Source: Cypionkella sp. | GTDB lineage: Bacteria; Pseudomonadota; Alphaproteobacteria; Rhodobacterales; Rhodobacteraceae | Direction of reading: 5' to 3' | Assembly (NCBI GenBank): GCA_025458085.1 | Contig: JALOTC010000007.1 | Location: 1 to 36,548, forward strand | Length of the DNA stretch: 36,548 nt | Shown: piece by piece, positions 6,362 to 31,878 of the stretch | Layout of the letters: each line of letters opens with the position of its first letter | Position numbering within the stretch: the stretch's first letter is position 1 | The notes under the pieces: model-generated | What the model saw: only the letters and a program-made list of their open reading frames with translations | The model's database searches: none | Told to the model about the DNA's origin: nothing | Position numbers and translations under genes: made by a program

Positions 6362-6380
6362 CACAGGCTCCTTTGGGCGG

Positions 6381-6584: not shown

Positions 6585-6588
6585 GGCC

Positions 6589-7140: not shown

Positions 7141-7176
7141 CGGAACATCCTCCGGCTGTTTGCCGGCACCATGGCC

Positions 7177-8031: not shown

Positions 8032-8245
8032 GATTCGATCCTTTGTAACAAAGTTGCGCCAGAAGCACGCATTGCGCCACAAATGGCAAGGGTGATTTTG
8101 CCGCGGCGCAGCAAAAACGCTACCCCCAATTCCTTGCGCGCGCCTTGCGTTAACCCTTTGTGGAGCGATCAGGCGCAGCCTCGCTCGGGGAAAGGCGGCT
8201 GGGGCGGGTGAACACAGGGGCCGGATCGGCCCAGAAAGGTAGAAC

Positions 8246-11787: not shown

Positions 11788-11940
11788 GCTTTTCCCCCGT
11801 GTTTCACTCAGACATAACGGAAATCGGCGCAGACAAAAACACCCTCTGCGTACACGGGACGCCGCCTTGCGGCGCTTCATCCGATTGACCAGACCTGCCC
11901 CAAGCGCCAGAACGGGCAGAGACAAGGCGCAGGGGGCGGC

Positions 11941-14182: not shown

Positions 14183-14275
14183 GGCAAGGCAGGGTCGCCC
14201 GGCTTGCGAGAGCGGGGAAAGGGCGCTACGCCTTTGTCGCGGTTTTGGCCTTTCCCGGCCCATCAAAGGTGCCCG

Positions 14276-15112: not shown

Positions 15113-16201
15113 TTACTTGCCCCAGATCTTGCTATAGGCTTCGCGGTAGCCGTTGCCCGGATCAAAGATATTACCGTCCCCGCCATCGAAGCTGATATTC
15201 TCTGCCGTCACCACATGGAGCGGTGAGGTATAGCCGGACCATTCCGCCTTGTTCACCGCGCGGTTCAATTCGTCGATCAACTGCCAGCCTTGCAGGTTCA
15301 GCGGCTCCGCCACTGTCACCGCCTGATACTGGCCCGAACGAATGCGCTGATAGGCGCTTTCAGAGCCGTCGCCTGCCGCGACGGCCTTCGGTGCGCCATC
15401 GCCGGGGATGCCAGCAGCCGCGAGGCTTGGACCCATGAAGTCGAAATAGATGTCATTGATGGCCAGCGCGTGGGTCCAGCTTGCACCGTATTTCTGCAGC
15501 AGGGCGGTGGTGAGCGTAGGCATACGGTTCGAGGTGTCGGCAATTGGCGTGTCTACATATTCAAGGACCGTACCGCCCAGAGCCTCGATCGTTTCCTTGA
15601 TCTTGTCGGCCTTGGCAATGGCGATGGCATATGTCGAGTCAGTGAAGATCACGACGCCCGGCTTGCCGCCCGCATCAGCAAAGGCCCATTTCGCCGCCGC
15701 TGCGGAAACCTCCATTGCATCCGTCGAAACGTTGGCGAAAAGGCAATTGTCAGGATCGGGCCCGATGACAGGCCCTGCATGCCAGCTCACCATCGGAATG
15801 CCCGCATCGCAGGCCTGTTTCAGCGCAGCCTGCTGTTCCACGGCGTCAAAGCCATTGATGATGATCCCGTCGGGCTGCAGCGCCAGCGCCTGACCAAAGG
15901 CCGCCGCCCGGTTCTGAACCGACCCCGCACCATCCAGCACGGTCACTTCCCAGCCGATCTTGGTGCCGGCCTCTTGAATGCCAGTGGTAACCCCAAGTAT
16001 GCCGCCATTCTTCATATCGGCAGCCAGAACGACCACGCGCTTGCCTTCGGCTGCGGCGGGGCCAGAGGTCGGGCCATCCCATTCGATTTTCTGGCCAGCA
16101 TATTTCTGCACATCGGCCATAGCCTCTGCGATGGCATCGGCCTGTGCAGGCATCGCCGCAGCCAGCGCGATCAGCGATACGGCAAAAGTTCTTCTCAGCA
16201 T
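15113..16201 (-). CDS. Sugar ABC transporter substrate-binding protein (RbsB-like)
   Basis: Signal peptide MLRRTFAVSLIALAAAMPAQA; periplasmic binding fold GKRVVVLAADMKNGGILGVTTGIQEAGTKIGWEV...ALQPDGIIINGFD. Confidence 0.88.
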   Translation of the reverse strand: MLRRTFAVSLIALAAAMPAQADAIAEAMADVQKYAGQKIEWDGPTSGPAAAEGKRVVVLAADMKNGGILGVTTGIQEAGTKIGWEVTVLDGAGSVQNRAAAFGQALALQPDGIIINGFDAVEQQAALKQACDAGIPMVSWHAGPVIGPDPDNCLFANVSTDAMEVSAAAAKWAFADAGGKPGVVIFTDSTYAIAIAKADKIKETIEALGGTVLEYVDTPIADTSNRMPTLTTALLQKYGASWTHALAINDIYFDFMGPSLAAAGIPGDGAPKAVAAGDGSESAYQRIRSGQYQAVTVAEPLNLQGWQLIDELNRAVNKAEWSGYTSPLHVVTAENISFDGGDGNIFDPGNGYREAYSKIWGK

Positions 16202-16225: not shown

Positions 16226-17248
16226 TTACTTTGACTTTGCGCCCTTCTTGCGTTGCGCATATCCGGCGATGCCGATCGCGATCAGCAATGTCGCGCCGTT
16301 GAACAACGGTTCTACCCAGAAGCTGCCGCCGAATTGCTGGATGCCCGAGATGCCCACGGCAAGGATCATCACCCCAACGATGGTACCCCAAACGTTGACA
16401 CGCCCCGGCTTTATGGTGGTAGAGCCGAGGAAGGCCCCAACCAATGCGGGCAGCAGGAATTCCAACCCGACGCTCGCCTGCCCGATCCTTAGTTTGGAGG
16501 CGAGCAACACCCCCGCCACGGCCGTGAGTAGCCCTGATGTCACAAAGGCCCCGATGACGAATTTGCGGGTGGGTATGCCGTTCAACTCGGCCGCGCGTTG
16601 GTTTGCACCAATCGCGTAAAGATATCGGCCGATCGGTGTGTATTCCAAAACAACCCAGAGCGTGACCGTGATCGCCAAGACATAAAAGGCGGTGATGGGC
16701 AGGCCGAAGACGAAGGTGCCGTTGATCGCATAAAAGGAGTCGGGGAGCGCGCCCACCATCTGCCGCCCGCCCGTATGCCAGAGCGCGAGGGCGTAAAGGA
16801 TGGTACCCGTGCCCAGAGTGGCAATGAAACTGTCAATCCGCGCGACTTCGACCAAAAGGCCGTTCAATGCACCGGTCACCACTCCGAGGATCAGAACGAT
16901 GCCAACCGCCATTGGCCAAGGCAGGCCAGCCATGGTTTGCAGGCTGATGGCGAGGATGTGCCACAGCACGATCCCGTAGCCCACCGTCAAGTCAATCCGG
17001 CCCGCGACCATTGGGATCATCGCGGCCAGCGACAACAGCGCAATGATTGCCTTGTCTGACAAAATTGCCCGCAGGTTCAGCATGGTCGGGAAGGTCTGCG
17101 GCAACAGGATCGAAAACAGCACGATCAGCCCGAACATCAGGATCACCAGCCCATAGGTCGGGGCGAGCCGGAACGCCTTTTGCATCAGGGACAAGCCCTT
17201 CAGTTCATCTTTTGTGGGTTCGACAGCGTTTGATTCAATTCCGGGCAT
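16226..17248 (-). CDS. Sugar ABC transporter permease (RbsC-like)
   Basis: Multi-TM, IPMVAGRIDLTVGYGIVLWHILA, NGIPTRKFVIGAFVTSGLL, LPALVGAFLGSTTIKPGRVNVWGTIVGV. Confidence 0.92.
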   Translation of the reverse strand: MPGIESNAVEPTKDELKGLSLMQKAFRLAPTYGLVILMFGLIVLFSILLPQTFPTMLNLRAILSDKAIIALLSLAAMIPMVAGRIDLTVGYGIVLWHILAISLQTMAGLPWPMAVGIVLILGVVTGALNGLLVEVARIDSFIATLGTGTILYALALWHTGGRQMVGALPDSFYAINGTFVFGLPITAFYVLAITVTLWVVLEYTPIGRYLYAIGANQRAAELNGIPTRKFVIGAFVTSGLLTAVAGVLLASKLRIGQASVGLEFLLPALVGAFLGSTTIKPGRVNVWGTIVGVMILAVGISGIQQFGGSFWVEPLFNGATLLIAIGIAGYAQRKKGAKSK

Positions 17249-17255: not shown

Positions 17256-18749
17256 TCAGGCAGCTTCTCCGGCCGAGGCGGCCTGGATCAGGGATTCGGT
17301 GGAAAGATCGATGCCGGTCAGTTCCGCGACGGGCAGCCCACGCGAAAAGACGATGGCACGATGGCAGATGGCGGCGATTTCCTCGAAATCGGTCGAAACA
17401 ACGAGCACCCCCATTCCCGAGGCAAGGGCCTGATAAAGGAGATGGTAAATCTCGGCCTTCGCCCCCACGTCGACCCCTGCAGTCGGGTCTTCGGTGATGA
17501 GCAGCCTGCGCCCACTGTCTAGCCAGCGCCCAACGACGACCTTTTGCTGGTTCCCGCCCGAAAGCGCCTCGATCGCCAAGGTCGGATCGTTGGGCGAAAG
17601 CCCAACACGGCGTCCCAACGCGCGGGCGGCCTCCTCCTCGCGCCGGGGGGGCAGCGCTGAAAGAAGGCCCCGCCCCGTGGCCGAAGGGTTCAGGAAGGCG
17701 TTTTCGCGGATTGACAGGCCGGGGGCGACGCTTTCGGCCACACGGTCGCGTGCGACCAGTCCGATGCCCGATTGCATTGCGCGTTGTGCGCTGCGCAGGT
17801 CGGGCGCGGCCCCATCCAGCACGATGCGGCCGGCATGAGGCGTCACACCAAAGAGCGCACGCCCGATATCCTCGTGCCCCGCTCCACGCAGACCAGCAAG
17901 ACCGAGCAACTCGCCCCGCCTGATCTCAAAGCTGACCGGACCGACGGCCGGGGTGGCCAGCCCCTCGACCCGCAGGATAGCAGGCCCCTCTTGCACGGGC
18001 GGGCGGGCAATCTCTCGCGCTTTGCGCCCCACGATCAGGCTGACCAACTCCTCAGGGGTCGTATGTCCGATTGGCCGCAGCCCAACCATCTGGCCGTCGC
18101 GCAGCACTGCCACACGGTCCGCGATGCGGAAGATCTCGTCCAGCCTATGGCTCACATAGATCATTCCCACCCCTTTTTCCCGAAGCGGACGCAACGCGGC
18201 AAAGAGGCGCTCCACTTCATCGGCGGGCAAGCTCGCAGTCGGCTCGTCCAGCACAAGAAAATCGCAATCGGCGGCCAGCGCCCGCGCAATCGCAACAAGA
18301 GACTTCTGGGTGCGCGTCAGACTGGCCACCCGGGCCGTGGACGAAAAGTCGGCCTCTACCAAGCGCAGCGCAGCATCTGCCTTGGCTTCCGTGGCGGGCC
18401 AGTCAATCCGCCGGCCTCTCCGGACATAGCCCAGTGCAAGCGCAATGTTTTCGGCGACGCTCATCCATTCGATCAGGCCAAGGTCCTGATGAATAAAGGC
18501 AACCTTCTGTCCACCCGTCTTGCCCGCCTCGTGGAAATAGGGTGTTCCATCAAGGAATACGCCACCTTCGTCGGGGCGATGTATACCGCCCAAGACCTTG
18601 ATCAGAGTGGATTTTCCTGCGCCATTTTCGCCAAGAAGGGCTACGATCTCTCCCCGATCGACCTTTAGTGAGATGCCCTTCAGCGCTCGCGTGCCGCCAA
18701 AGGATTTGACAATGCGATCAAACAGCAGGCCGCCGGTGGACGATTGCAT
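17256..18749 (-). CDS. Sugar ABC transporter ATP-binding protein (RbsA-like, two NBDs)
   Basis: LLGENGAGKSTLIKVLGG Walker A; SGGNQQKVVVGRWL; 497 aa. Confidence 0.93.
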   Translation of the reverse strand: MQSSTGGLLFDRIVKSFGGTRALKGISLKVDRGEIVALLGENGAGKSTLIKVLGGIHRPDEGGVFLDGTPYFHEAGKTGGQKVAFIHQDLGLIEWMSVAENIALALGYVRRGRRIDWPATEAKADAALRLVEADFSSTARVASLTRTQKSLVAIARALAADCDFLVLDEPTASLPADEVERLFAALRPLREKGVGMIYVSHRLDEIFRIADRVAVLRDGQMVGLRPIGHTTPEELVSLIVGRKAREIARPPVQEGPAILRVEGLATPAVGPVSFEIRRGELLGLAGLRGAGHEDIGRALFGVTPHAGRIVLDGAAPDLRSAQRAMQSGIGLVARDRVAESVAPGLSIRENAFLNPSATGRGLLSALPPRREEEAARALGRRVGLSPNDPTLAIEALSGGNQQKVVVGRWLDSGRRLLITEDPTAGVDVGAKAEIYHLLYQALASGMGVLVVSTDFEEIAAICHRAIVFSRGLPVAELTGIDLSTESLIQAASAGEAA

Positions 18750-18805
18750 GACTGGCCCCTCCCGGCGCAGATGGTCACCTGCTACCGGCTTCCCCCTCCA
18801 CTGGT

Positions 18806-18815
18806 TTACCGGTAA
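18806..18815. promoter_or_regulatory. Candidate second palindromic operator
   Basis: TTACCGGTAA perfect 10-bp palindrome between ABC ATPase and lacI-1. Confidence 0.4.
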
Positions 18816-18859
18816 CGTAGGCAGAGTGGCGTGGGTCCACCATATCTGTCAAGCGAGAA

Positions 18860-18873
18860 GTTAACGATAACAT
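18860..18873. promoter_or_regulatory. Candidate LacI-family operator O1
   Basis: GTTAACGATAACAT in divergent intergenic region of ABC operon and lacI-1. Confidence 0.65.
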
Positions 18874-18903
18874 GAGCCGCGACATTCCGCCCCGGAGGCA
18901 TCT

Positions 18904-19899
18904 GTGAAAGCCAGTTTGGAAGATATCGCCCGTGTGGCGGGTGTCTCGAAAATGACCGTCAGCCGCGTTCTGCGCGGCGCGTCTGGCTTTTCTGATGAAA
19001 CACGGGACCGCGTCCTGCAAATAGCTCAGAACCTTGGCTATGTCCCCAACCGACTGGCTGCCGCCTTCGGCGCGGATCAGGCCAGTACACTGGTCGGCAT
19101 GTGCGTGCCGCGACTGACCTCTGGTCTGTTCGGGCATGTTCTCGATGGCGTTGACAGGGCGCTGACCCGGCTAGGCTTTCAACTGATGATCGGGGCCAAC
19201 AACCATTCACTGGCGGAAGAGGAGGCCTGGATCCGACAGGTGGTCAGCTGGCGTCCGGCAGGCCTGATTCTCTCCGGCCGCACGCACACCCCTGCGACGG
19301 TCGATCTGTTGCGGCTATCGGCCCTGCCTGTCGTCGAAATCTGGGACCTGACGACCCGCCCGATCGATCTTGCCATCGGATTTTCTCATGTCGATTGCGG
19401 GGTCGAGATGGGTCAACACCTGATCAGGCGAGGCAGACGTCGGATCGGTTATCTTGGGGCGCTGGCGCGTGCTGATGTGATGGGGGCCGCGCGGCTGCAA
19501 GGGCTGCAACAGGCTCTGCAACAGGCCGGCCATCCGCTGGAAGCGGTGGAGATACTGCACGACGCCCCCGGCTTCTATGCCGGGTACTATGGGCTAGAGA
19601 TGCTTCTTGCCCGCGCGCCGGAATTAGATGCGGTTGCCTTCCATAATGATGAAATGGCGATCGGAGGGCTGGCATGGTGCCAGAAATGTGGGCTTCGCGT
19701 TCCCGAAGATATCGGTATCGCAGGCTGGGGCGGGATGGAGGCCGCCTCGATCCTGCCGCGCAGGCTCACCACAACGCAGGTCCCAACCACCGCTATTGGC
19801 AAGGCCGCGGCCGAAGCGCTGGTCGCGCGGCTACAGGGCGCAAATATACCAGAGGTCACGGTTCTGCCGACCCGGCTCATCCCCGGCGAAACGGTCTAA
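18904..19899 (+). CDS. LacI family regulator 1 (GntR/IdnR-like), GTG start
   Basis: SLEDIARVAGVSKMTVSRVLRGASGFSDETRDRVLQIAQNLGYVPNRLA; GntR-like signature LPVVEIWDL. Confidence 0.93.
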   Translation: MKASLEDIARVAGVSKMTVSRVLRGASGFSDETRDRVLQIAQNLGYVPNRLAAAFGADQASTLVGMCVPRLTSGLFGHVLDGVDRALTRLGFQLMIGANNHSLAEEEAWIRQVVSWRPAGLILSGRTHTPATVDLLRLSALPVVEIWDLTTRPIDLAIGFSHVDCGVEMGQHLIRRGRRRIGYLGALARADVMGAARLQGLQQALQQAGHPLEAVEILHDAPGFYAGYYGLEMLLARAPELDAVAFHNDEMAIGGLAWCQKCGLRVPEDIGIAGWGGMEAASILPRRLTTTQVPTTAIGKAAAEALVARLQGANIPEVTVLPTRLIPGETV

Positions 19900-20026
19900 A
19901 CTCTCCTCATCCCTCGTTTGGCTTCTGAATTTCCCCCCTTCATCTTGGCAAAATGACTCGGGCCGTCGGTCCTCGCCCCGTGCCTCAAGGACGGCGTGCC
20001 GCGCCTTACCCCTTGAACAGGGGCCA

Positions 20027-20908
20027 TCACATCCCGTTTCGATTCAGAACCACTGCGTAAAGGCTGGTCGTCGCTGTGATAAACAGCCGATGCTTGGCCC
20101 TGCCACCAAAGCAGAGGTTAGACACGATCTCTGGCACAAGGATCTTGCCCAGAAGCCTTCCGTCCGGCGCAAGGCAATGCACGCCATCTGCTGCCGAGGA
20201 CCAGAGATTACCCTCCGTATCCACCCGCATTCCATCGGCACAGCCGGGGCTGATCTTGTGAAAGAGCCGCCCGTTTTCAGGCCGCCCCGCCACCATGTCA
20301 AAGACACGGATCGATTGGGGGTCAGCGGAAAACATCCGTCCCGTATCGGCAACATAAAGACGGCTTTCATCAGGGCTAAATGCCAGACCATTGGGGCAGG
20401 CCATATCGGTAATCATCGCCTCTAGCTTGCCATCGGGGGGCAGACGATAAACAGCGCAGGGTAGCTCCTGCGGCGCGCGGAAACCTTCATAATCGGTCAT
20501 GATCCCGTAATGCGGATCGGTGAACCAGATCGTGCCATCCCGCGCGACAACGACGTCGTTGGGGCTGTTCAGCGGCTTTCCCTCAAAGCTGTCCGCCAGC
20601 ACCGTCACGGTCCCATCCCATTCGGTGCGCGTGACGCGCCGGGTTCCATGTTCGCAACTGATCAGCCGACCTTGCCGGTCACGGGTATGACCATTCGCGA
20701 ATTGGGAAGGCGCGCGAAAGGTGGTGATCCCTTCCTCTGTCCAGCGCAGGATGCGATTATTCGGAATATCCGAGAACAATAGACAATTCTGGTCGCCAAA
20801 CCACACGGGGCCTTCTACCCAATCAAAGCCGGTGGCCAGCCGTTTCAAGGGCGCGTTCCCCATCACATAGGTCGCGAAGACTGGGTCTCGGATTTCAAAG
20901 GAAGTCAT
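20027..20908 (-). CDS. SMP-30/gluconolactonase/LRE family protein
   Basis: GFDWVEGPVWFGDQNCLLFSDIPNNRILRW, GKPLNSPNDVVVARDGTIWFTDPHYGI, CPNGLAFSPDESRLYVADT. Confidence 0.93.
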   Translation of the reverse strand: MTSFEIRDPVFATYVMGNAPLKRLATGFDWVEGPVWFGDQNCLLFSDIPNNRILRWTEEGITTFRAPSQFANGHTRDRQGRLISCEHGTRRVTRTEWDGTVTVLADSFEGKPLNSPNDVVVARDGTIWFTDPHYGIMTDYEGFRAPQELPCAVYRLPPDGKLEAMITDMACPNGLAFSPDESRLYVADTGRMFSADPQSIRVFDMVAGRPENGRLFHKISPGCADGMRVDTEGNLWSSAADGVHCLAPDGRLLGKILVPEIVSNLCFGGRAKHRLFITATTSLYAVVLNRNGM

Positions 20909-21059
20909 GCAGGGTATCTCCCGGTCTATGCCGTACAGGGGGAAGCATGGCCTTTACCTCAGCCTTACCGATCCGGCAGGGCGTTTCAAGACAGGCGTAG
21001 GGGTCCAGCAGGCGGGCAAAAGGCGGCGGGGTGACCGTATTCGCGGCGATCAGGGTCAT
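20895..21059 (-). CDS. Candidate small ORF (54 aa), unknown
   Basis: ATG at 21059 overlaps idnD stop (ATGA); ends 14 nt inside the SMP-30 gene; MTLIAANTVTPPPFARLLDPYACLETPCRIGKAEVKAMLPPVRHRPGDTLHDFL. Confidence 0.3.
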   Translation of the reverse strand: MTLIAANTVTPPPFARLLDPYACLETPCRIGKAEVKAMLPPVRHRPGDTLHDFL

Positions 21060-22087
21060 GAAAAGGCAATCTGCGCCTTCATCGCCTGTGTTCGGTCCGA
21101 GGCGAGACGGAAGGCCACCTCTGCCTGATCCAACGGTACAGTCTGAGTGATCAGTGGCTTCACATTGATCAATGCCTTCTGCATGAGACCAACCCCAAAG
21201 GCGAATTCCGAATGGAAGCGGAAAGAACCGCGCAGTTCCAATTCCTTTGCGGTAATTGCCATCATGGGCAGTGCCATATCCCCGCCAAGGCCCAATTGCA
21301 GGATCACCCCTCGCGGACGCAAGGCCGGAATGGCCCCGGCCAGGGCGGCGGCAACGCCGGTGCATTCATAAAGCACATCGAAACTTCCCTTATCCGCCGC
21401 ATAGCCAGCCAGCGCATCGGGATCGCGCCCGGTGTTGATCACCCGGTCCGCCCCGACCTTTGCCGCGAGCGACAGGGTGAAATCCGAAAGATCGGTGGCC
21501 ACGATCTCTGCCGCGCCTGCCCGCCGCGCCGCGAGGATCGACAGAACACCAATCGGCCCGCAGCCTGTGACGAGCACGCGCTTGCCCAGTATCCCGCCCG
21601 CGCGGGCCGTGGCATGGAGCGTCACGGCCAAGGGTTCGGCCATCGCCGCCTCGCCCGCCGTCAGCCCCGTGGCATCGACGCATTGGCTTGCATCCGCCAC
21701 AAGGCTTTCGCGAAAGGCCCCCTGAATATGGGGAAAGGGCATGGCAGAACCGTAGAAGCGCATGTTGAGGCATTGGTTCGGCAGGCCCTCCAGACAGTAA
21801 CGGCACCCCCCGCAGGGGCGCGAAGGCGACACCGCGACAAGCTGCCCCGGCTGAAAGCCAGTTACGCCCGGCCCTAATTCCTCGACATAGGCCGAAACCT
21901 CATGGCCGAGGATCATCGGCTCACGCAGGCGCACGGCGCCAAAGCCGCCATTGTGGTAGTAATGCAGGTCAGACCCGCAAATCCCGCCAGTCGCAAGGCG
22001 CAGGCGCATCTGGCCGGGACCGGGGCGTTCCGCGGGCCGCTCCTCGATCCGCAGGTCATGGGCGGCGTGGATGACGATCGCGCGCAT
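21056..22087 (-). CDS. idnD: Zinc-dependent MDR dehydrogenase, likely L-idonate 5-dehydrogenase
   Basis: MRAIVIHAAHDLRIEERP, GGICGSDLHYYHNGGFGAVRLREPMILGHEVSA, PCGGCRYCLEGLPNQCLNMRFYGSAMPFPHIQGAF. Confidence 0.87.
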   Translation of the reverse strand: MRAIVIHAAHDLRIEERPAERPGPGQMRLRLATGGICGSDLHYYHNGGFGAVRLREPMILGHEVSAYVEELGPGVTGFQPGQLVAVSPSRPCGGCRYCLEGLPNQCLNMRFYGSAMPFPHIQGAFRESLVADASQCVDATGLTAGEAAMAEPLAVTLHATARAGGILGKRVLVTGCGPIGVLSILAARRAGAAEIVATDLSDFTLSLAAKVGADRVINTGRDPDALAGYAADKGSFDVLYECTGVAAALAGAIPALRPRGVILQLGLGGDMALPMMAITAKELELRGSFRFHSEFAFGVGLMQKALINVKPLITQTVPLDQAEVAFRLASDRTQAMKAQIAFS

Positions 22088-22088
22088 G

Positions 22089-23042
22089 TCACAGCACCGG
22101 GGTAGGCAGCGGCTTGCCCGCGAAATGCGCGGCCAGATTATCGCGCACCAGCTGGCCCATGGCCTTGCGCGTCTCGAAGGTGCCGCTGGCGTGGTGGGGC
22201 TGCAACAGCACATTGGGCAGAGACAGGAAGCGGGGGTTCAGCTTTGGCTCGCCTTCGAAAACATCCAGCGCGGCAGAGCCAAGCCTGCCGCTTTCCAGCG
22301 CATCCAGCAGGGCGTTTTCATCAATGTTAGAGGCGCGGCTGATGTTGATCAGCATCCCCTCTGGCCCCAAGGCCTCGATCACGCGGGCATTCACGATGTG
22401 GCGCGTGGCGGCCGAGGCGGCGAGGCTGACGAAAAGGAAATCCGACCGGGCGGCAAGCGCCACGGGATCGGCGATGAATGCCCATCCCCGCGCCTCTGCC
22501 TCTGGCTTGGGGGCACGGCTGGAATAGGCGATCTCCATGTCAAAGCCCGCCAGACGTTTGGCCACTTCAAACCCGATCCGGCCAAGGCCCAGAACCCCGG
22601 CGCGCTTGCCCCAAACCTTGCGCTGCAAAGGGTATAGCCCCTTGGCGGCCCATGATCCGTCGCGCACCCAAGCCTCGGCCCCGATGATACCGCGTGATTG
22701 CGCCAGCATCATCCCCACCCCCAAATCCGCCACGTCATTGGTCAGCACATCGGGCGTGTTCGTCACACGAATGCCGCGTGCGCGGCAGGCGTCCAGATCA
22801 ACCGCATCATAACCCACGCCATAGACGCTGATGATTTCCAGATTCGGGCAGGCCGCGATCATCGCTGCATTGGCCCCAAGTTCGCCGCGCGTGGCGATAC
22901 CGCGAATCTTCGGGCCATGTTCGGCAAGAAAGGCCGCTTTGTCCGACGCCTCGAAATAGCGATGCGCATGATAGGCGGCGTCGAGCGGGGCCTGATCCCA
23001 TTCCGGGTAAGGGCCGACTTGCAGGATATGGGGCTTGTCCAT
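22089..23042 (-). CDS. D-isomer specific 2-hydroxyacid dehydrogenase (GhrB-like 2-ketoacid reductase)
   Basis: VLGLGRIGFEVAKRLAGFDMEIAYSSR, LINISRASNIDENALLDAL, LLQPHHASGTFETRKAM. Confidence 0.88.
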   Translation of the reverse strand: MDKPHILQVGPYPEWDQAPLDAAYHAHRYFEASDKAAFLAEHGPKIRGIATRGELGANAAMIAACPNLEIISVYGVGYDAVDLDACRARGIRVTNTPDVLTNDVADLGVGMMLAQSRGIIGAEAWVRDGSWAAKGLYPLQRKVWGKRAGVLGLGRIGFEVAKRLAGFDMEIAYSSRAPKPEAEARGWAFIADPVALAARSDFLFVSLAASAATRHIVNARVIEALGPEGMLINISRASNIDENALLDALESGRLGSAALDVFEGEPKLNPRFLSLPNVLLQPHHASGTFETRKAMGQLVRDNLAAHFAGKPLPTPVL

Positions 23043-23060
23043 CTTCTCTCCCATCGGGGC

Positions 23061-23089
23061 TTGACAGCTTTTGTTAACGATAACATAAA
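23061..23089 (+). promoter_or_regulatory. Candidate promoter with operator O2 in the -35/-10 spacer
   Basis: TTGACA (23061-23066), 17-nt spacer containing GTTAACGATAA, CATAAA (23084-23089); operator TGTTAACGATAACATA at 23072-23087. Confidence 0.55.
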
Positions 23090-23134
23090 CAGCAAATCCC
23101 CCGCTTGTCGAGGGCGAAGTGAAGGAGCATCAAG

Positions 23135-23890
23135 ATGTCGGCCCAGCTTTTCGATCTGACCGGGAAACGCGCGCTGATCACCGGATCGTCGCAGGGCATC
23201 GGCTTTGCCTTGGCGCAAGGTTTGGCTGCGGCGGGGGCAAAGGTGGTGCTGAACGGGCGCGATACGGCCAAATTGGCCGAGGCTGCGGCCCGGATTACGG
23301 GCGCGCAGACACTGGCCTTCGATGCAACCGACCACGAGGCTGTGCGCGCCGCCATCGACGGGTTCGAGGCGCAGGGCAATGAGATCGACATTCTGGTGAA
23401 CAACGCCGGGATGCAGCATCGCGCACCATTAGAGGATTTCCCCGCCGATGCCTTTGATCGGCTGCTGCAGACCAATATTGCCAGTGTCTTTCATGTGGGA
23501 CAGGCGGTCGCGCGCCACATGATCGGGCGCGGACGGGGCAAGATCATCAATATCGCCAGCGTCCAGACCGCACTCGCCCGTCCCTCCATCGCGCCCTATA
23601 CGGCGACGAAAGGCGCCGTTGGAAACCTGACGAAAGGCATGGCGACCGATTGGGCGAAACACGGGCTGAACTGCAATGCCATCGCACCGGGCTATTTCGA
23701 TACACCGCTCAATGCGGCACTGGTCGCGGACCCGGCCTTTAGCGCGTGGCTGGAAAAGCGCACCCCCGCAGGGCGGTGGGGCAAGGTGGAGGAGTTGCAG
23801 GGTGCCTGCATCTTCCTCGCATCAGATGCGGCGAGTTTCGTGAACGGCCATATCCTCTATGTCGATGGCGGGATCACGGCCTCGCTATGA
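23135..23890 (+). CDS. idnO: SDR oxidoreductase, likely gluconate 5-dehydrogenase
   Basis: LTGKRALITGSSQGIGFALAQGLAAAGAKVVLNGRD, NNAGMQHRAPLEDFP, YTATKGAVGNLTKGMATDWAKHGLNCNAIAPGYF. Confidence 0.87.
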   Translation: MSAQLFDLTGKRALITGSSQGIGFALAQGLAAAGAKVVLNGRDTAKLAEAAARITGAQTLAFDATDHEAVRAAIDGFEAQGNEIDILVNNAGMQHRAPLEDFPADAFDRLLQTNIASVFHVGQAVARHMIGRGRGKIINIASVQTALARPSIAPYTATKGAVGNLTKGMATDWAKHGLNCNAIAPGYFDTPLNAALVADPAFSAWLEKRTPAGRWGKVEELQGACIFLASDAASFVNGHILYVDGGITASL

Positions 23891-24384
23891 CCCTACGCGT
23901 GGTGATCATGGGCGTCTCGGGCTGCGGCAAATCCAGCGTGGGCGCGGCGCTGTCGGTGCGCCTTGGCATCCCCTATCGCGATGGCGATGATCTGCACCCT
24001 GCCGCGAATGTGGCCAAGATGCGCGCGGGCATCCCCTTGGGGGACGAAGATCGCTGGCCATGGCTGGACCGCGTGGCCAACGTGCTGCGGCGCGAGGCAC
24101 CAGTCCTCGTCGGTTGCTCTGCCCTGCGCCGCGCCTATCGCGACCGCATTCGCGCGGGCGCGGGCGGGCCTGTGCGCTTTGTCCATCTGACAGGAGGCCG
24201 CGCGGTGATCGCGGCGCGGATGGCTGCGCGCGAGGGGCATTACATGCCGCCTTCGCTGCTGGATAGCCAGTTCGCCACGCTGGAACCGCCCGGCCCGGAG
24301 GAGGCGTTCAGCATCGACATCGACCAACCGCTTGCCGCCATTGTGGATGGCATCCTTCCCGCGCTTTCAGGAGAGACACGATGA
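23887..24384 (+). CDS. gntK: Gluconokinase
   Basis: MGVSGCGKSSVGAALSVRLGIPYRDGDDLHPAANVAKMRAGIPLGDEDRWPWL; ATGA overlap. Confidence 0.93.
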   Translation: MTLRVVIMGVSGCGKSSVGAALSVRLGIPYRDGDDLHPAANVAKMRAGIPLGDEDRWPWLDRVANVLRREAPVLVGCSALRRAYRDRIRAGAGGPVRFVHLTGGRAVIAARMAAREGHYMPPSLLDSQFATLEPPGPEEAFSIDIDQPLAAIVDGILPALSGETR

Positions 24385-25268
24385 CCGGAACCGTTGCACT
24401 GATTGGCGCGGGCGCGATGGGAGGGGCCATCGGCGCGCGGCTGGTGCAGACCGGCACCCCATTGGTGGTCTTTGACCTTGACCCTGAAAAGGTGGCAGCG
24501 CTGGTGGCGCTTGGCGCAAAGGCCGCGCCTTCAGCCGCGGCGGCAGCGGGGGCGGCGCAGGCCGTGATCCTGTCGCTGAATGCAGCGCGGATCGTGCGGG
24601 CGGCGGTCTTTGGGGCAGAGGGTGTGGCCGAGGGTGCCGCCCCCGGCACGCTGATCATTGACATGTCCTCGATCGACCCGGAGTCGACCAAGGCGCTGGC
24701 GGCGGATGCGGCAAGCCATGGCCTGCGGTGGGTGGACAGCCCGCTTTCGGGTGGCATCCCGAAGGCTGCGACCGGGGAACTCACGCTGATGCAAGGCGGG
24801 GCCGAGGCGGATGTGGCCGAGGCGCAGGCGGTGCTGGCGGGTGTGGCCGCGAACCAGACGCGCATGGGCGGGCCGGGCGCGGGACAGACGACAAAGCTGA
24901 TCAATCAGGTGCTCTGCGGTCTTGGCTTTCTGGCCGTGGCCGAAGCGACCGCCCTCGCCCAAGCTGCGGGCGTCGATGCCGATATGATTCCGCGCGCCCT
25001 GCGCGGGGGCCGCGCCGATAGCGCGATCTTGCAGGAATACATGCCCCGTTTTGCCCACCGCGACTATCGCCGCACGGGACGGATCGACAATATGGTCAAG
25101 GATCTGGATGGCGCGGCCGATCTGGCGCGTCTGACCGGCACGTCGATGCCGCTGACCATGCTCTGCGCCGAAATCCACCGGATGCTGACAGCGGCGGGGC
25201 TTGGCGGCGAGGATCAGGCCGCATTGATGGAATTCTTCAAAGGACCGGAAAAGGAACAATTCAGATGA
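24381..25268 (+). CDS. NAD(P)-dependent beta-hydroxyacid dehydrogenase family protein (3-HIBDH/GarR superfamily)
   Basis: VALIGAGAMGGAIGARL Rossmann, DSPLSGGIPKAATGELTLMQGG, GAGQTTKLINQVL; ATGA overlap with gntK. Confidence 0.88.
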   Translation: MTGTVALIGAGAMGGAIGARLVQTGTPLVVFDLDPEKVAALVALGAKAAPSAAAAAGAAQAVILSLNAARIVRAAVFGAEGVAEGAAPGTLIIDMSSIDPESTKALAADAASHGLRWVDSPLSGGIPKAATGELTLMQGGAEADVAEAQAVLAGVAANQTRMGGPGAGQTTKLINQVLCGLGFLAVAEATALAQAAGVDADMIPRALRGGRADSAILQEYMPRFAHRDYRRTGRIDNMVKDLDGAADLARLTGTSMPLTMLCAEIHRMLTAAGLGGEDQAALMEFFKGPEKEQFR

Positions 25269-25600
25269 TCACCCGCTATGCCCTGTTCGAAGGCAAGGTG
25301 CACGAAGGCCAGACCGAAGCCTTTCGCAACGCCGTGCTGACCGAAATCCTGCCGAAGTGGAAGGCTTTCCCCGGTGCCTTGGCCGTGCGGGTGACCTTTG
25401 CCGAAAGCCGGGACGAAGGCGCGCCGGAATATCCGCTGATCCTTGCCATCAGCTATCCCGACCTTGCGGCGGTGGACCGCGCCTTGGCCAGCCCTGCGCG
25501 TAGTGAAGGCAAGGCCGCGACAGAGGCGGTTCTGGCCCGCTATTTCACAGGCCGAATTCACCACCACATCACCACAGCCCATGATCACGAACTGGTCTGA
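25265..25600 (+). CDS. Small protein, possible dimeric alpha/beta-barrel (Dabb/ABM-like) fold, unknown function
   Basis: 111 aa MITRYALFEGKVHEGQTEAFRNAVLTEILPKWKAFPGALAVRVTFAESRDEGAPEYPLILAISYPDLAAVDRAL; ATGA overlap with upstream gene. Confidence 0.75.
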   Translation: MITRYALFEGKVHEGQTEAFRNAVLTEILPKWKAFPGALAVRVTFAESRDEGAPEYPLILAISYPDLAAVDRALASPARSEGKAATEAVLARYFTGRIHHHITTAHDHELV

Positions 25601-25677
25601 GGTGGCAGGCCTATGACGGGGCCGATCACACAGGGCGGGGGCTGGATTCAGCTGCGGGGGGAAGATAGCTTGCGCCC

Positions 25678-26694
25678 ATGACCGCATCGCGCAAAGCCCC
25701 CACCATGACCGATGTCGCCCGTCTTGCGGGCGTCTCGCCCATGACGGTCAGCCGTGCCTTCAAATCCCACAGTTCCATCAGCAGCACCACGCGGGATGCG
25801 ATCCTGAAGGCGGCTGATGAACTGGGCTATGTTTTTGACAGCACCGCTTCGAACCTGCGGTCGCAGAGGACGGATTTCGTTGCTGTCACGATCCCGTCGA
25901 TCAACAATGCGAACTTTGCCGATACTGTCCGTGCGCTTTCAGACGGGCTGAAATCGCGGGGGCTGCAAATCCTGCTGGGCATGACCGATTACGACATGAC
26001 CGAGGAGGAAAGGCTGATCGAACAGCTTTTGCGCCGCAGGCCAGAGGCGATTGTGGTGACCGGGGGCAACCATACCCCCCGCGCGCGCAGGCTTTTGGAA
26101 AACGCGGGCATCCCGGTCATCGAAACATGGGATCTGCCCGCCGCCCCGATTGACCATGTCGTGGGCTTTTCCAATGCCGAGGCCGTGCGCGGGATGGTCG
26201 ATCATTTCGTGGCCCAAGGGATGACCCGCATCGCCTTTATCGGCGGGGACGCCAGCCGCGATACGCGTGGGGCTGACCGGCGCGCAGGCTTTGTCGCGGC
26301 GATGCAGGCCCATGGACTTGATGCCTCTCGCCTGATCGCAGCCGGCCAACCACCGATTTCGATGCGCGAGGGGGCAGAGGCGATGGCGCGGCTGCTGGAC
26401 AGCCTGCCCGACACCGAAGGGGTGATCTGCGTCTCGGACCTATCGGCCTTTGGCGCGCTTGCGGAATGTCAGCGGCGCGGTATTGCCGTGCCGGAGCGCC
26501 TGTCGATCGCAGGCTTTGGAGATTATGAAATCGCGGGCGTCGCGGTCCCCGCGCTGACCACGATCAACCCGCACCCGAAAGAGATCGGCCAGCGCGCCGT
26601 TCAACTGATCCTTGACCTGATCGATGGCAAAGGTGCCGGGCCTGCACGGATCACCATCACGCCTGACCTGATCTTGCGCCAATCAAGCCGTTAG
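25678..26694 (+). CDS. LacI family regulator 2 (GntR-like)
   Basis: APTMTDVARLAGVSPMTVSRAFKSHSSISSTTRDAILKAADELGYVFD; IPVIETWDLP. Confidence 0.93.
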   Translation: MTASRKAPTMTDVARLAGVSPMTVSRAFKSHSSISSTTRDAILKAADELGYVFDSTASNLRSQRTDFVAVTIPSINNANFADTVRALSDGLKSRGLQILLGMTDYDMTEEERLIEQLLRRRPEAIVVTGGNHTPRARRLLENAGIPVIETWDLPAAPIDHVVGFSNAEAVRGMVDHFVAQGMTRIAFIGGDASRDTRGADRRAGFVAAMQAHGLDASRLIAAGQPPISMREGAEAMARLLDSLPDTEGVICVSDLSAFGALAECQRRGIAVPERLSIAGFGDYEIAGVAVPALTTINPHPKEIGQRAVQLILDLIDGKGAGPARITITPDLILRQSSR

Positions 26695-26801
26695 ACGGAT
26701 AGGAGGCGGGCACTTCGCCGTTCCCTTGGCCGACATCCGCGCGGGATGGGTACGGGGTGGGCGGATCCCCCTTCAAGGGGACGGTCAAAAAGGACACGGA
26801 A

Positions 26802-26825
26802 AAAGGGGCGGTTGCCCGCCCCTTT
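26802..26825. terminator. Hairpin terminator between convergent lacI-2 and dctP
   Basis: AAAGGGGCGG-TTGC-CCGCCCCTTT, 10-bp stem; A-run on left gives a U-run on the minus strand. Confidence 0.75.
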
Positions 26826-26846
26826 CCTGCAAACCATCAGAGCCGA

Positions 26847-27821
26847 TTACTGCTGTGCGGCCAGGATCGCGTTCACAACTGCATCACCCTGTTCGGCAAT
26901 GAAGCTGTCCCACACGGGCTTCACCGCAGCTTGGAAGGCAGCGGCATCGACATCATCGTTCACTTCCATGCCTGCGGCTTTCAGTTCTTCGATCATGCCG
27001 GCTTCCTTTTCCTGCACGGCCTTGCGCTGCATTGCCACGGCTTCGGCCGCGACCTCGGCGATGACCTTCTGCTCTTCAGCTGTCAGGCTGTTGAACTTTG
27101 CGTCATTCATCACAAGCGCCAGCGCAGAATAGGCATGCTGGGTCAGGCTGAGGTGCTTTTGCACCTCGTTGAACTTGAACGACAGCACGATCCCGATCGG
27201 GTGGTCCTGCGCATCGACCACGCCGGTTTCCAGCGCGGTGTAAAGCTCTGCCACGGGCAGCTGCGTCGGGTTCGCGCCCAGAAGCGCGAACATTTCGTTC
27301 AGCGCCTTGGAGTTGTTGACCCGCATGTTCAGCCCCGAAAGATCAGCCGGGGTCCGGATCGGGCCACGGTTGTTCGTCATGTTGCGATAGCCGTTTTCGG
27401 GAAAGCCCAGCACCTTTAGCCCATGCTGGGTAAACTCGCCCGCGATGCCCTGCCCGATTTCGCCATCCAGCACGGCATAGGCGGTGTCGCGCGTGGGGAA
27501 CATGAAGGGCAGTTCAAAGGCCCCGGCCTGCGGCACAAGACCTGTGAAGTTATTCAGGCCCGACATGGCGATGTCGATGATGCCCGACCGCGCGCCATCG
27601 ATCATTGCGGCGTCATTGCCAAGCTGACCCTGCGGGAAGATCGCCACGGTGACCGAACCATTGGTCCGCGCCTCCACCTGTTCCTTGAAGAACAGCGATA
27701 GGGTCTGTTGCAGGTCCGTTTCCGGCGCAGCATGGGCGAGCTTCAGCTCCGTCTGTGCCTGTGCGCCGAAAGCGGCAAGGGCGAAGGCAGATGCCAGCCC
27801 GAGTGTCTTGAGAATATTCAT
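26847..27821 (-). CDS. dctP: TRAP transporter substrate-binding protein (DctP family)
   Basis: Signal peptide MNILKTLGLASAFALAAFGAQA, TELKLAHAAPETDLQQTLSLFFKEQVEARTNGSVTVAIFPQGQLGND. Confidence 0.92.
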   Translation of the reverse strand: MNILKTLGLASAFALAAFGAQAQTELKLAHAAPETDLQQTLSLFFKEQVEARTNGSVTVAIFPQGQLGNDAAMIDGARSGIIDIAMSGLNNFTGLVPQAGAFELPFMFPTRDTAYAVLDGEIGQGIAGEFTQHGLKVLGFPENGYRNMTNNRGPIRTPADLSGLNMRVNNSKALNEMFALLGANPTQLPVAELYTALETGVVDAQDHPIGIVLSFKFNEVQKHLSLTQHAYSALALVMNDAKFNSLTAEEQKVIAEVAAEAVAMQRKAVQEKEAGMIEELKAAGMEVNDDVDAAAFQAAVKPVWDSFIAEQGDAVVNAILAAQQ

Positions 27822-27836
27822 GTCAGTCCTCCCTTT

Positions 27837-29126
27837 TTATCGTGCAGTTCCGCCCAAGAAGCTGGCGGGGATGGTGATGAGTTCAGGAAACAGGATGAAA
27901 AGCCCCAGAAGCACGGTATAGGCCGCAACAAAGGGGGCGACGCCACGCACGGCTGTGCTCATGCTGACTTTGGCCACGCCGCAGATCACGTTCAGCACTG
28001 TGCCGACCGGCGGGGTGATCAGGCCGATGGAGCAATTCAGCACAAACATCAGGCCGAAATAGACCGGATCGATCCCCGCCATCGCGGTCAGCGGCATGAA
28101 CAGCGGCACAAGGATCAGGATCGTCGGCGCAAGGTCCATCACCATGCCGACCGCAAAGACGATCAGCATGATGACCAGCATCAGAAGGCGCGGATTGTCG
28201 ATCAGCGGCGCCAGCAGGACGCCCAGTTGCTGCGGCAGTTGCGCCACTGTTATCAGCCAAGAGGCAACCATGGCCGCGCCCACAAGGAACATAACCATCG
28301 CTGTGGACCGAGCGGCAGAGAGCAGCACCTCGAACATCATGGTCCAAGTCAGCGACCGATAGACCAGAAGCGAGATCACAATGGCATAGACCGCTGCGAC
28401 GACGGCTGCCTCGGTCGGCGTGAAGGCCCCCGAACGGATGCCGCCGATGATGATGACGGGCAAGAGCAGCGCCCAGAAGCCGTCTTTCAGCGCGGCCATG
28501 CGCTCCCGCCCACTGGCGCGGGGCATCGTCTCTATCTCTTCGTTGCGCATCAGAAAGCGCCAGACCACCATGAGCGTCAGGCCCATCATAAGCCCCGGCG
28601 CGATGCCAGCCATGAAGAGCTTGCCGATCGAGATATTGCCGGCGACCCCGATCAGGATCAGCGGCAAGGATGGCGGGATGATCGGCGCGATGATGCCGCC
28701 GGAGGCCAGAAGACCAAGGCTGCGCGCCTCGGGATAACCGGCCTTGCGCATCATCGGGTAAAGGATCGACACCAGCGCCGCCGCATCGGCCACGGCTGAT
28801 CCCGAAAGCCCCGCGAGCACAATTGAGGTTATGATCGCCACATAGCCAAGCCCGCCGCGCCGGTGGCCGACAAGGGTCATCGCCAAGGCGACGATCTTGG
28901 TCGAAAGCCCGCCGCGCGACATGACCTCGCCCGCGACGAGGAAGAAGGGGATGGCAAGCAAGGGGAAACTGTCCACGCCATTCACAAGGCCTTGGGCCAG
29001 AATGTCGGAACTGAAGGTATCAAGCTGGATCATCAAGGCGATGGAGGCCAGCAGAAGGGCAAAAGCGATGGGCAGGCCCACGAAAATGCCGAAAAACAGA
29101 ACGGCAAGGAAAAGGACAAGGGTCAC
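27837..29126 (-). CDS. dctM: TRAP transporter large permease (DctM family)
   Basis: Multi-TM VTLVLFLAVLFFGIFVGLPIAFALLLASIALM..., GSAVADAAALVSILYPMMRKAGY, IIPPSLPLILIGV; GTG start overlapping dctQ stop. Confidence 0.93.
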   Translation of the reverse strand: MTLVLFLAVLFFGIFVGLPIAFALLLASIALMIQLDTFSSDILAQGLVNGVDSFPLLAIPFFLVAGEVMSRGGLSTKIVALAMTLVGHRRGGLGYVAIITSIVLAGLSGSAVADAAALVSILYPMMRKAGYPEARSLGLLASGGIIAPIIPPSLPLILIGVAGNISIGKLFMAGIAPGLMMGLTLMVVWRFLMRNEEIETMPRASGRERMAALKDGFWALLLPVIIIGGIRSGAFTPTEAAVVAAVYAIVISLLVYRSLTWTMMFEVLLSAARSTAMVMFLVGAAMVASWLITVAQLPQQLGVLLAPLIDNPRLLMLVIMLIVFAVGMVMDLAPTILILVPLFMPLTAMAGIDPVYFGLMFVLNCSIGLITPPVGTVLNVICGVAKVSMSTAVRGVAPFVAAYTVLLGLFILFPELITIPASFLGGTAR

Positions 29127-29608
29127 GGCTGTTCCTCCGCCTTTTCGCGCAGGCGGCGCGGGTCGATGAAGCGGACAACTGCCACCCCGCCCATCAGAAC
29201 GGCAGAGACGACACCGGCAAGATAAAAGAGCGCCGAAGGCAAGCCCGTGAGTTGTGATGTATTGGCCCAGTTCGCCATGGTCTGATGCCATGAGCCGATG
29301 AAGAACATGACCATGCAAAGGATGACCACCATCCAGCAAAAGCGCCGCAGAAACGGCACGGCGCGCGGGAAAAGGCGTTCGGAGAATTCGCTAAGCGCGA
29401 GATGTTCATCGTGGCGCAGCGCCACTGCCGCCCCCAAAAGGACGATCCAGACAAAGCCAAGCCGCGCCAATTCCACCGATTGACGGATGCCCGAAGAAAA
29501 GCCGTAGCGCATGACCACATTGGCAAAAACAATGGCGATCATCGCGCCCATCAGTGCCACCAGCACGATGTCAATGATGGCCCATAAACGCCGGACAAGC
29601 GCCGCCAT
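29123..29608 (-). CDS. dctQ: TRAP transporter small permease (DctQ family)
   Basis: Four TM segments; MAALVRRLWAIIDIVLVALMGAMIAIVFANVVMRYGFSSGIRQSVELARLGFVWIVLLGAAVALRHDEHLALS. Confidence 0.88.
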   Translation of the reverse strand: MAALVRRLWAIIDIVLVALMGAMIAIVFANVVMRYGFSSGIRQSVELARLGFVWIVLLGAAVALRHDEHLALSEFSERLFPRAVPFLRRFCWMVVILCMVMFFIGSWHQTMANWANTSQLTGLPSALFYLAGVVSAVLMGGVAVVRFIDPRRLREKAEEQP

Positions 29609-29664
29609 TCTTCTCCCCCCTTTTCTTCGACACCCTCTTTGCCCTTGCCGGGTAAAGCTCCTCT

Positions 29665-29680
29665 GGGTTATCGTTAACCC
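29665..29680. promoter_or_regulatory. Candidate LacI-family operator O3a
   Basis: GGGTTATCGTTAACCC, containing the reverse complement of GTTAACGATAAC, in dctQ/lacI-3 divergent region. Confidence 0.62.
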
Positions 29681-29686
29681 AAATTG

Positions 29687-29697
29687 GTATCGATAAC
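29687..29697. promoter_or_regulatory. Candidate LacI-family operator O3b abutting lacI-3 start
   Basis: GTATCGATAAC immediately before ATG 29698; centre 19 bp from O3a centre. Confidence 0.55.
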
Positions 29698-30726
29698 ATG
29701 AAGTCGAGTCAACCCCCCGCCGGACCACGCCCCCCGACAATCGTCACCGTTGCTACGGCGGCGGGAGTCAGTCCCATGACCGTGTCGAAAGTGCTGCGCG
29801 GCACAGGGCGGATCAGCGCGGATACGCGCGAAAGGGTGCTGCGGCTGGCCGATCAACTGGGCTATGTGCCCAATGGCCTTGCCGGGGCGCTGTCGTCGCA
29901 AACAAGCCAGATCGTGGGCGTCCTGATCCCCTCGATCGGGGATATGGTCTATTCCGGCGTGCTTGCGGGCATCAATTCCGTCCTCGTGCCGCGTGGCTTT
30001 GCCGCGTTCATCGGCGAGACTTTCTTTGACCCAGAGGCAGAGGCGCGGCTGGTGCGGACGATTCTTTCCCTGAAACCCTCGGCACTCATCCTGACAGGGG
30101 GATTGGCCCGGACCGCAGGCACAGCGCATCTGTTGCGGCAAAGCGGGGTGCGCTGCGTGCAGCTTTGGGATGGCGATTGCCCCGATCTGGAGGCCACGGT
30201 GGGGCTGTCGCATCTGGCGGCCGGGCGGGCGGCGGCGGGGCTGTTCCTTGCCGCGGGGCTAGAGGAGGCGTGGTTCATCGGCGCGCAACTGGACCGCGAT
30301 CTTTGCGCCGCGCGACGGATGGAAGGGTTCCGCACGCAGATGGAGGCGGCGGGCGGGCGTTGCCACATCCATGCCGATGCCACCCGCCCCCGCGACACAG
30401 AGACGGGCGAGGCGCTGACGGCAGAACTGCTGCGCGCGGGCAGGCTGCCTGCGGCCATTCACTACCTCAACGATGCCATGGCCATCGGCGGGCTGCGGGC
30501 GCTTTTGGCGGCGGGGGTGGATGTGCCGGGGCAGACGTCGATCATCGGCTTTAACGGCACATCGCTGCGCCATGCGATCCAGACGCGGCTGACAACGATT
30601 GATGTGCCGCTGCATGATGTCGGCGCGCGGGCCGCACAGGCGCTGTTACACATGGATGCCTCTGGCACCGATCTGGTGCCCTTCCGCATCGTCACCGGAA
30701 CGACACTGCGCCGCCCCGAGCCGTAA
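29698..30726 (+). CDS. LacI family regulator 3 (GntR-like)
   Basis: TIVTVATAAGVSPMTVSKVLRGTGRISADTRERVLRLADQLGYVPNGLAGAL. Confidence 0.93.
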   Translation: MKSSQPPAGPRPPTIVTVATAAGVSPMTVSKVLRGTGRISADTRERVLRLADQLGYVPNGLAGALSSQTSQIVGVLIPSIGDMVYSGVLAGINSVLVPRGFAAFIGETFFDPEAEARLVRTILSLKPSALILTGGLARTAGTAHLLRQSGVRCVQLWDGDCPDLEATVGLSHLAAGRAAAGLFLAAGLEEAWFIGAQLDRDLCAARRMEGFRTQMEAAGGRCHIHADATRPRDTETGEALTAELLRAGRLPAAIHYLNDAMAIGGLRALLAAGVDVPGQTSIIGFNGTSLRHAIQTRLTTIDVPLHDVGARAAQALLHMDASGTDLVPFRIVTGTTLRRPEP

Positions 30727-30735
30727 GACCAACGC

Positions 30736-31773
30736 CTAACCGCGCAGGGTTTGCCCCCGGTCCAGTCTGGGCGTGATCTCCTCGCGCGCGCCACGGGGCG
30801 CACCTGCAAGGCGGGAAAGGATCATCCGCGCCGCAGACCGCCCGATGTCGAACCTGCGGGTATCGGTCGTGGCAATGCGCGGGGTGATGCCATCAAGAAA
30901 CTCAAGTCCCGAAAAACCAGCCAATCCCGTTTCTTCGGGCACCTTGCGCCCTGCGGCCTGCAAGGCAAAGAGCGCACCAGCTGCGATCATGTCATTGGTG
31001 CAATAGAGAAAATCCACCTCTGGCCAATGGGAAAGAGCCGTTGCCGCCAGTGCCCTGCCCTTTGGCACGGAACTCGCGCCATTATAGGACAGGCTCCCCA
31101 GAACCGGCACCCCTGCGGCGCGGAGCGTTTCCTCGAACCCGCGAAAGCGGCTGTCTTGCCGCCTGTCGCCCTGTTGCGCCGATCGCAAAAGCACCGCATT
31201 GCGATGGCCTGCCGCGATCATCGCGCGCGCCATCGCCACGCCGACACCATGTTGCGACACGCCCACCACACCATCAATGCCGGTCCCGTCGCTATCCATG
31301 ATCTCAACCACCGGGATATCCGCACGGGCCAACATGGCGCGGGTCGTGTCGTCATGCTCCAGCCCCGTCAGCACAACCGCCGAAGGCCGCCATGCCAAGA
31401 GTTCCGCCAGAACCTGCGCCTCGGTCGCCGTGTCGTATTTCCCAAAACCCAGCACGGCTTGCAAATCGCTGCCCTCCAGCCCCGCGTTCAGGCCCATCAG
31501 GACTTCGGGAAAGACCATGTTCGACATGCCCGGCACAATCACAGCGACGAGTGGCACCCGCGCCCCTGCCAAGGCGCCTGCGATGCGGTTCGGGACATAG
31601 CCAAGGCTGCGGGCCGTATTGCGGACCCGTGCGGCAATATCGCCCGACACCCCACGCTGCCCGCGCAGAACACGGCTGACGGTCATTTCAGAAACGCCGC
31701 AGGCCGCCGCGATATCGCTTTGCGAGATCTTCGACACGGGGCGCGGAGGGAAGGAACGCGAAGGGGATGTCAT
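30736..31773 (-). CDS. LacI family regulator 4 (GntR-like)
   Basis: KISQSDIAAACGVSEMTVSRVLRGQRGVSGDIAARVRNTARSLGYVPNRIAGALAG; IPVVEIMDSDGTGIDGVVGVS. Confidence 0.93.
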   Translation of the reverse strand: MTSPSRSFPPRPVSKISQSDIAAACGVSEMTVSRVLRGQRGVSGDIAARVRNTARSLGYVPNRIAGALAGARVPLVAVIVPGMSNMVFPEVLMGLNAGLEGSDLQAVLGFGKYDTATEAQVLAELLAWRPSAVVLTGLEHDDTTRAMLARADIPVVEIMDSDGTGIDGVVGVSQHGVGVAMARAMIAAGHRNAVLLRSAQQGDRRQDSRFRGFEETLRAAGVPVLGSLSYNGASSVPKGRALAATALSHWPEVDFLYCTNDMIAAGALFALQAAGRKVPEETGLAGFSGLEFLDGITPRIATTDTRRFDIGRSAARMILSRLAGAPRGAREEITPRLDRGQTLRG

Positions 31774-31862
31774 CCTTGGCTACCTTTTCCTTCTCGACTG
31801 GTCCGGTGACGTACCGGTGCGCTGACCGCCCCTGACCGCTGCACATATTCTGCTCACATCCC

Positions 31863-31878
31863 ATGTTATCGTTATCAC
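31863..31878. promoter_or_regulatory. Candidate LacI-family operator O4
   Basis: ATGTTATCGTTATCAC (reverse complement GTGATAACGATAACAT) upstream of lacI-4. Confidence 0.6.

Follow-up and report, generated by a model that had tools for sequence, protein, structure and literature searches.

Four LacI-family regulator genes and a recurring operator-like motif are found together in one sugar-acid cluster of Cypionkella sp. (contig JALOTC010000007.1), within a window of 36,548 nucleotides. This raises the question of how sister repressors standing side by side are told apart at their promoters. On the left of the cluster, the minus strand carries an ABC importer operon with the ATP-binding protein as its first gene (17256–18749, Pfam ABC_tran), the permease (16226–17248, BPD_transp_2) and the periplasmic sugar-binding protein (15113–16201, Peripla_BP_4), and lacI-1 (18904–19899, Pfam LacI) lies divergently on the plus strand. 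The minus strand continues with an SMP-30/gluconolactonase-like gene (20027–20908, Pfam SGL), a zinc alcohol dehydrogenase (21056–22213, with its true start probably near 22087), whose nearest NCBIfam family is L-idonate 5-dehydrogenase (342 bits against a cut-off of 469), and a D-2-hydroxyacid dehydrogenase assigned by profile matches as GhrB/ketogluconate reductase-like (22089–23054). The plus strand then encodes an SDR oxidoreductase of the gluconate 5-dehydrogenase-like kind (23135–23890, above the cut-off of NCBIfam PRK07523), a gluconokinase of the GntK/IdnK type (23887–24384, above that of TIGR01313), a member of the 3-hydroxyisobutyrate/tartronate-semialdehyde dehydrogenase family (24381–25268, by profile matches) and lacI-2 (25678–26694). 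A TRAP transporter on the minus strand (DctP, 26847–27821; DctM, 27837–29126, its ORF listed to 29339; DctQ, 29123–29608), lacI-3 on the plus strand (29698–30726) and lacI-4 on the minus strand (30736–31773) complete the set. The enzymes fit a pathway of the gluconate/ketogluconate/idonate type, the substrate being suggested by the enzyme set. Directly left of the importer operon is an inositol-monophosphatase-family gene (14204–15040), and further left are genes for a MotA/TolQ/ExbB-type proton channel and a TonB-like protein (11941–12750 and 13130–14182), a GntR-family (UTRA) regulator with about 140 residues ahead of its HTH (11098–12192, minus strand), and mesaconyl-CoA-hydratase-like and HpcH/HpaI aldolase/citrate-lyase-like genes (5336–8454).

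A pattern search of the window gave predicted operators at 18860, 23073 and 29667, and two more with one mismatch each at 29686 and 31865. These five had been listed by an earlier sequence-only reading, each next to a lacI gene, the start of an operon or both, and their positions and placement are borne out; the list was not complete, as a sixth, C-centred site, TTTACCGGTAAC (18805–18816, one mismatch), had been overlooked at the start of the ABC operon. The T/A-centred GTTAACGATAAC is present both in the divergent ABC/lacI-1 promoter (18860–18871), 55 bp from the C-centred site, and between the GhrB and SDR operons (23073–23084). At the TRAP/lacI-3 promoter, the T/A-centred GTTATCGTTAAC (29667–29678) and GGTATCGATAAC (29686–29697, one mismatch) form a pair 19 bp apart, and the last site, T/A-centred and matching the reverse GATAACGATAAC with one mismatch (31865–31876), is about 90 bp upstream of lacI-4. 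The operators are even palindromes with a central CG, as in the LacI/GalR family, and so are those of related loci; all of those in the window have T/A or C at the centre, and none has the G-bearing centre of CceR/GapR sites. At up to two mismatches on both strands, the window contains 9 matches, against 0.35 ± 0.67 in dinucleotide shuffles. In the organism's own genome (2.87 Mb searched, 236 contigs, 83% complete), GTTAWCGWTAAC occurs exactly at three places, all inside the window, and at eight places with at most one mismatch, five of them in the window. Within this genome, such clustering of the motif is unique to the window. The one-mismatch sites on other contigs (C122:24358 and C114:3824, in or beside ORFs, and C67:2401) are not tied to the present cluster. 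When any base was allowed beside the central CpG, three further exact sites appeared outside the window, all of them G-bearing.

The genome contains eight LacI genes, of which the window holds four. All four products score over the Pfam cut-offs for an N-terminal LacI HTH and a periplasmic-binding-like effector domain. In the tree they fall into separate supported clades, each with its own ortholog group, and LacI-4 is sister to CceR. The regulators are indeed paralogs, as the earlier reading stated, but old and separate lineages, LacI-1 being 32–34% identical to the other three. The GntR-like effector signature claimed for several of them also needs qualification: relative to PVVELMD of E. 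coli GntR/IdnR, only LacI-4 (PVVEIMD) is close, a W replaces the M in LacI-1 and LacI-2, and LacI-3 reads QLWD. None of the four exceeds the cut-off of an NCBIfam GntR or IdnR equivalog, the best scores being 229–295 bits against 400 (GntR, Pseudomonas type), 141–215 against 500 (IdnR) and 119–185 against 433 (E. coli GntR); judged by sequence, they are GntR-like proteins and not members of the GntR/IdnR equivalogs. The recognition and hinge residues are K15 M16 R20 F54 G55 in LacI-1, P15 M16 R20 L54 R55 in LacI-2, P15 M16 K20 L54 S55 in LacI-3 and E15 M16 R20 L54 A55 in LacI-4. Met16 is therefore common to all four, LacI-3 alone has Lys20, and positions 15/55 differ from one regulator to the next (K/G, P/R, P/S and E/A). 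Since its P15 M16 R20 belong to the same class as those of the others, LacI-2 does not have the divergent recognition helix once ascribed to it, at least where specificity is set. The genus-mate G136 has no close match to LacI-1, LacI-2 or LacI-3, yet LacI-1 and LacI-2 of Rhizobium/Allorhizobium relatives (L182, L185) are 75–80% identical to those of the window, which suggests that the module was transferred across orders. Gemmobacter aquaticus (L181) and Rhizobium sp. SL86 (L182) are examples of relatives that have the cluster.

Within a comparison of more than 100 related clusters, an alignment search with LacI-2 collected 80 loci from Rhodobacterales, Rhizobiales and others (51–83% identical, 1.53 Mb). 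The pattern GTTAnCGnTAAC, a GTTA half-site around nCGn, has 147 sites in 71 of the 80 loci, GTTA being the commonest half-site by far; 130 of the 147 are T/A-centred, and eleven other orders of the same four letters gave 0–1 matches each, although the loci are related by descent and counts across them overstate the independent events. Chance as the origin of the motif is ruled out by these counts together with the shuffles and the genome search. Other species have their sites at the same promoters and at matching offsets from LacI-2 (about −2.6 kb and +3.9 kb). The idea that the regulatory regions of such a gluconate/idonate-type cluster, with its several GntR/IdnR-like LacI paralogs, have one operator class in common is supported. 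Of 67 related SDR genes, 55 have an exact T/A site no more than 350 bp upstream and 12 lack one in that range, where no other centre occurs; the exact SDR sites in LacI-2 loci are T/A in 58 of 58 cases. In the window, the operator between GhrB and SDR fills the spacer of a predicted SDR-operon promoter (TTGACA, 17 bp, CATAAA; 23061–23089, plus strand), conserved in relatives, which a predicted GhrB promoter overlaps (TCGACA, 18 bp, TATGTT; 23111–23082, minus strand). The operator overlaps the predicted −10 elements of both face-to-face promoters, an arrangement seen in many relatives.

Which regulator would read these T/A sites? The earlier reading supposed that LacI-2 reads a different operator, and this fails against the 71 loci above, which include Rhizobium clusters with LacI-2 but without LacI-1 or LacI-3, where T/A-centred sites are kept at catabolic and transporter promoters. 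Because such LacI-2-only clusters carry the same sites, LacI-2 is the simplest and the predicted reader of the T/A operator; it is the constant regulator of the cluster, and no other is tied so closely to this operator. Five loci of a Roseobacter-like subclade (L282–L285, L291) have a divergent LacI-2 (47–50% identity, with F54 in the four that are readable), and these loci have a C-type site proximal to lacI-1 and mixed sites at SDR, which argues that the centre base is not fixed by residue 15 alone. A simple rule leading from F54 to C was also considered, and is insufficient given that the LacI-2 of L220 has F54 while T/A sites are kept; we claim no one-residue rule for the centre base. The same five loci offer a natural case of operator-centre drift.

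The C-centred operator behaves differently. All 33 LacI-1 promoters have a pair of sites 53–58 bp apart, of which the ABC-proximal one always contains a C half, whereas the ABC genes of LacI-2 loci without LacI-1 never have a C-bearing site (0 of 29; 25 of their 27 exact sites are all-T/A). Of the 33 lacI-1-proximal sites, 20 are all T/A and 13 are C-bearing. Such a site is not T/A whenever LacI-2 is linked, a rule broken by the divergent-LacI-2 subclade, and the varying spacing speaks against a fixed helical phasing of the pair. A class-wide search for LacI-1 added one new ortholog. Between the two operators lies a conserved CTTGACA, whose TTGACA (18847–18852, minus strand) is the predicted −35 element of the ABC operon and is found as TGTCAA in most of 34 aligned promoter rows; this would put the C-type site close to where transcription is predicted to start, and the T/A site directly upstream of the −35. 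Since the T/A sites are also found in LacI-2 clusters that lack the other LacI genes, one might suppose that LacI-2 alone reads every site while LacI-1, LacI-3 and LacI-4 act on other, unseen operators. This is improbable, as the C-type site is found only beside LacI-1, where it persists in loci without LacI-2 in the 20 kb examined (L280, L286–L290), and a double site precedes all nine LacI-3 genes. A single regulator could nonetheless tolerate both centres at the LacI-1 promoter.

The double site was present in nine of nine LacI-3 orthologs, with a spacing of 19–24 bp, and 18 of its 19 sites are all T/A; at the TRAP promoter, LacI-2 and LacI-3 may plausibly compete. The site at 31865 is absent before the one other LacI-4 ortholog. 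In view of this absence, its T/A centre and the match of E15/A55 to CceR, we read it as a LacI-2/3 target rather than LacI-4's own operator, the most tentative of our assignments. LacI-4 is not the CceR ortholog, for the genome has a separate CceR-like LacI on contig C206 (also E/A at 15/55), 48% identical to LacI-4 and presumably corresponding to RSP_1663; it is mostly through such proteins that a LacI-4 query matches 134 of 150 family genomes at E ≤ 1e-40. Exact sites stand upstream of 16 CceR-like LacI genes; each contains a G half and none is all-T/A. The organism's own genome has exact G-centred sites upstream of edd, of zwf and of the CceR-like gene, in agreement with what is described for the CceR/GapR regulon (PMC4052901, PMC5507952). 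A G-centred pattern with one mismatch, GTTAGCGCAAAC/GTTTGCGCTAAC, recurs in this genome (G000) at C13:8053, C30:6809, C121:14605 and C128:5835, possibly as further CceR-type sites. It is very improbable that the global CceR/GapR, instead of the local LacI proteins, reads the sites of the window: it does share the half-site and is nearly universal in the family, but its own sites all bear G, and the T/A sites follow the LacI-2 cluster and not the universal LacI.

The GTTA half-site thus appears to come in three channels, T/A, C and G, set by the base adjoining the central CpG, in agreement with a published LacI recognition code. In that code, by Camas et al. 2010 (PMC2978694), Met at AA-16 goes with TT at NT-5/-4, Arg at AA-20 with G at NT-6, and NT-2 is tied to AA-55, AA-15 and AA-5. 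Shared ancestry and Met16 lead one to expect a common half-site, which leaves the centre as the place where the paralogs can differ. Our regulators resemble this code in that GTT is predicted from Met16/Arg20; they differ in showing three NT-2 classes side by side in one genome and in that residue 54 (Phe or Leu), which the code does not include, may also play a part. E. coli GntR and IdnR have K15, as LacI-1 does, and seven of seven candidate sites at their known targets contain a C half. That gluconate and L-idonate system (GntI/GntII) likewise has two paralogous Met16/Arg20 LacI regulators with common GTTA-type operators and genes for idonate dehydrogenase, ketogluconate reductase and gluconokinase (PMC4052901). 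In contrast, the alphaproteobacterial cluster has ABC and TRAP transporters where E. coli has GntT/IdnT, as many as four local LacI genes in addition to a CceR-like one, a main regulator whose operators are T/A-centred rather than C-rich, and a mixed pair at the importer. CceR/GapR (RSP_1663), the central-carbon regulator of Rhodobacteraceae whose described effector is 6-phosphogluconate (PMC4419725, PMC5507952), belongs to the same LacI subgroup, with the same half-site and LacI-4 as its sister lineage, but it has G-centred operators (edd, zwf, its own gene) and a regulon that is global, not cluster-bound.

The sequence-only reading had the four paralogs bind the same operator at similar affinity and compete, making a layered sensor. 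The GTTA half-site and Met16 common to all four agree with it, as do the T/A centres at both the LacI-2 and LacI-3 promoters, and E. coli GntR recognises IdnR sites too (Tsunedomi et al. 2003, as related in PMC4052901). We nevertheless regard it as unlikely. The shared class stands, but it is divided into subclasses by the centre base, which follows the regulator (C in 33/33 LacI-1 ABC-proximal, G in 16/16 CceR and T/A in 58/58 SDR sites), and LacI-4, which is nearer to CceR than to the others, has an upstream site that its other ortholog does not share.

We instead favour, with a probability of about 0.72, a module whose LacI-family repressors share GTTA by descent and are distinguished by the base that adjoins the central CpG. 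In it, LacI-2 would be the main local repressor at T/A operators, LacI-1 would take the C-centred, LacI-3 the double T/A and LacI-4 the G-centred sites. The sites, their positions, conservation and co-occurrence come directly from the sequence; from them we infer which protein would bind which site, with repression as the sign. Under this proposal, LacI-2 would act at three T/A places, the GhrB/SDR, ABC/lacI-1 and TRAP promoters. At the GhrB/SDR operator it would block RNA polymerase, repression by occlusion being favoured because the operators overlap conserved predicted promoter elements. The C-centred operator, where the ABC importer operon begins, would be read by LacI-1; with LacI-2 on the T/A site 55 bp away, a mixed pair of operators would gate the importer. 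The double T/A operator shared by the lacI-3 and TRAP promoters would be read by LacI-3, probably with LacI-2 as well. For LacI-4, as in its sister CceR, a preference for G-centred sites is predicted, and its own gene is probably controlled from a T/A-centred site. The repressors would be released by a putative effector, either a sugar acid or its phosphate. A stricter version, to which we give somewhat less than an even chance, has NT-2 as the only feature that insulates the paralogs from each other. LacI-2 and LacI-3 would use T/A, LacI-1 would use C, and CceR and probably LacI-4 would use G, the key being AA-15 together with hinge residues 54/55. ABC/lacI-1 would be a mixed two-operator gate, and its lacI-1-proximal operator would have moved between C and T/A as the LacI-2 lineage changed.

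The operators stand at gluconate/idonate catabolic genes, and this sugar-acid regulon is a variant within the GntR/IdnR kind that may have been described earlier. A motif seen in a single window has led to a natural test of the way in which sister transcription factors keep clear of cross-talk, and to a ready set of related repressor–operator pairs for circuit design. If the three-channel code is true, LacI-2 would prefer GTTATCGATAAC over GTTACCGGTAAC, and the T/A, C and G preferences would separate among GTTATCGATAAC, GTTACCGGTAAC and GTTAGCGCTAAC. If our reading is right, the published and largely untested link between NT-2 and AA-15/AA-55 would explain three operator classes in one genome, and regulon boundaries would be predicted for many sugar-acid clusters of Rhodobacterales and Rhizobiales.
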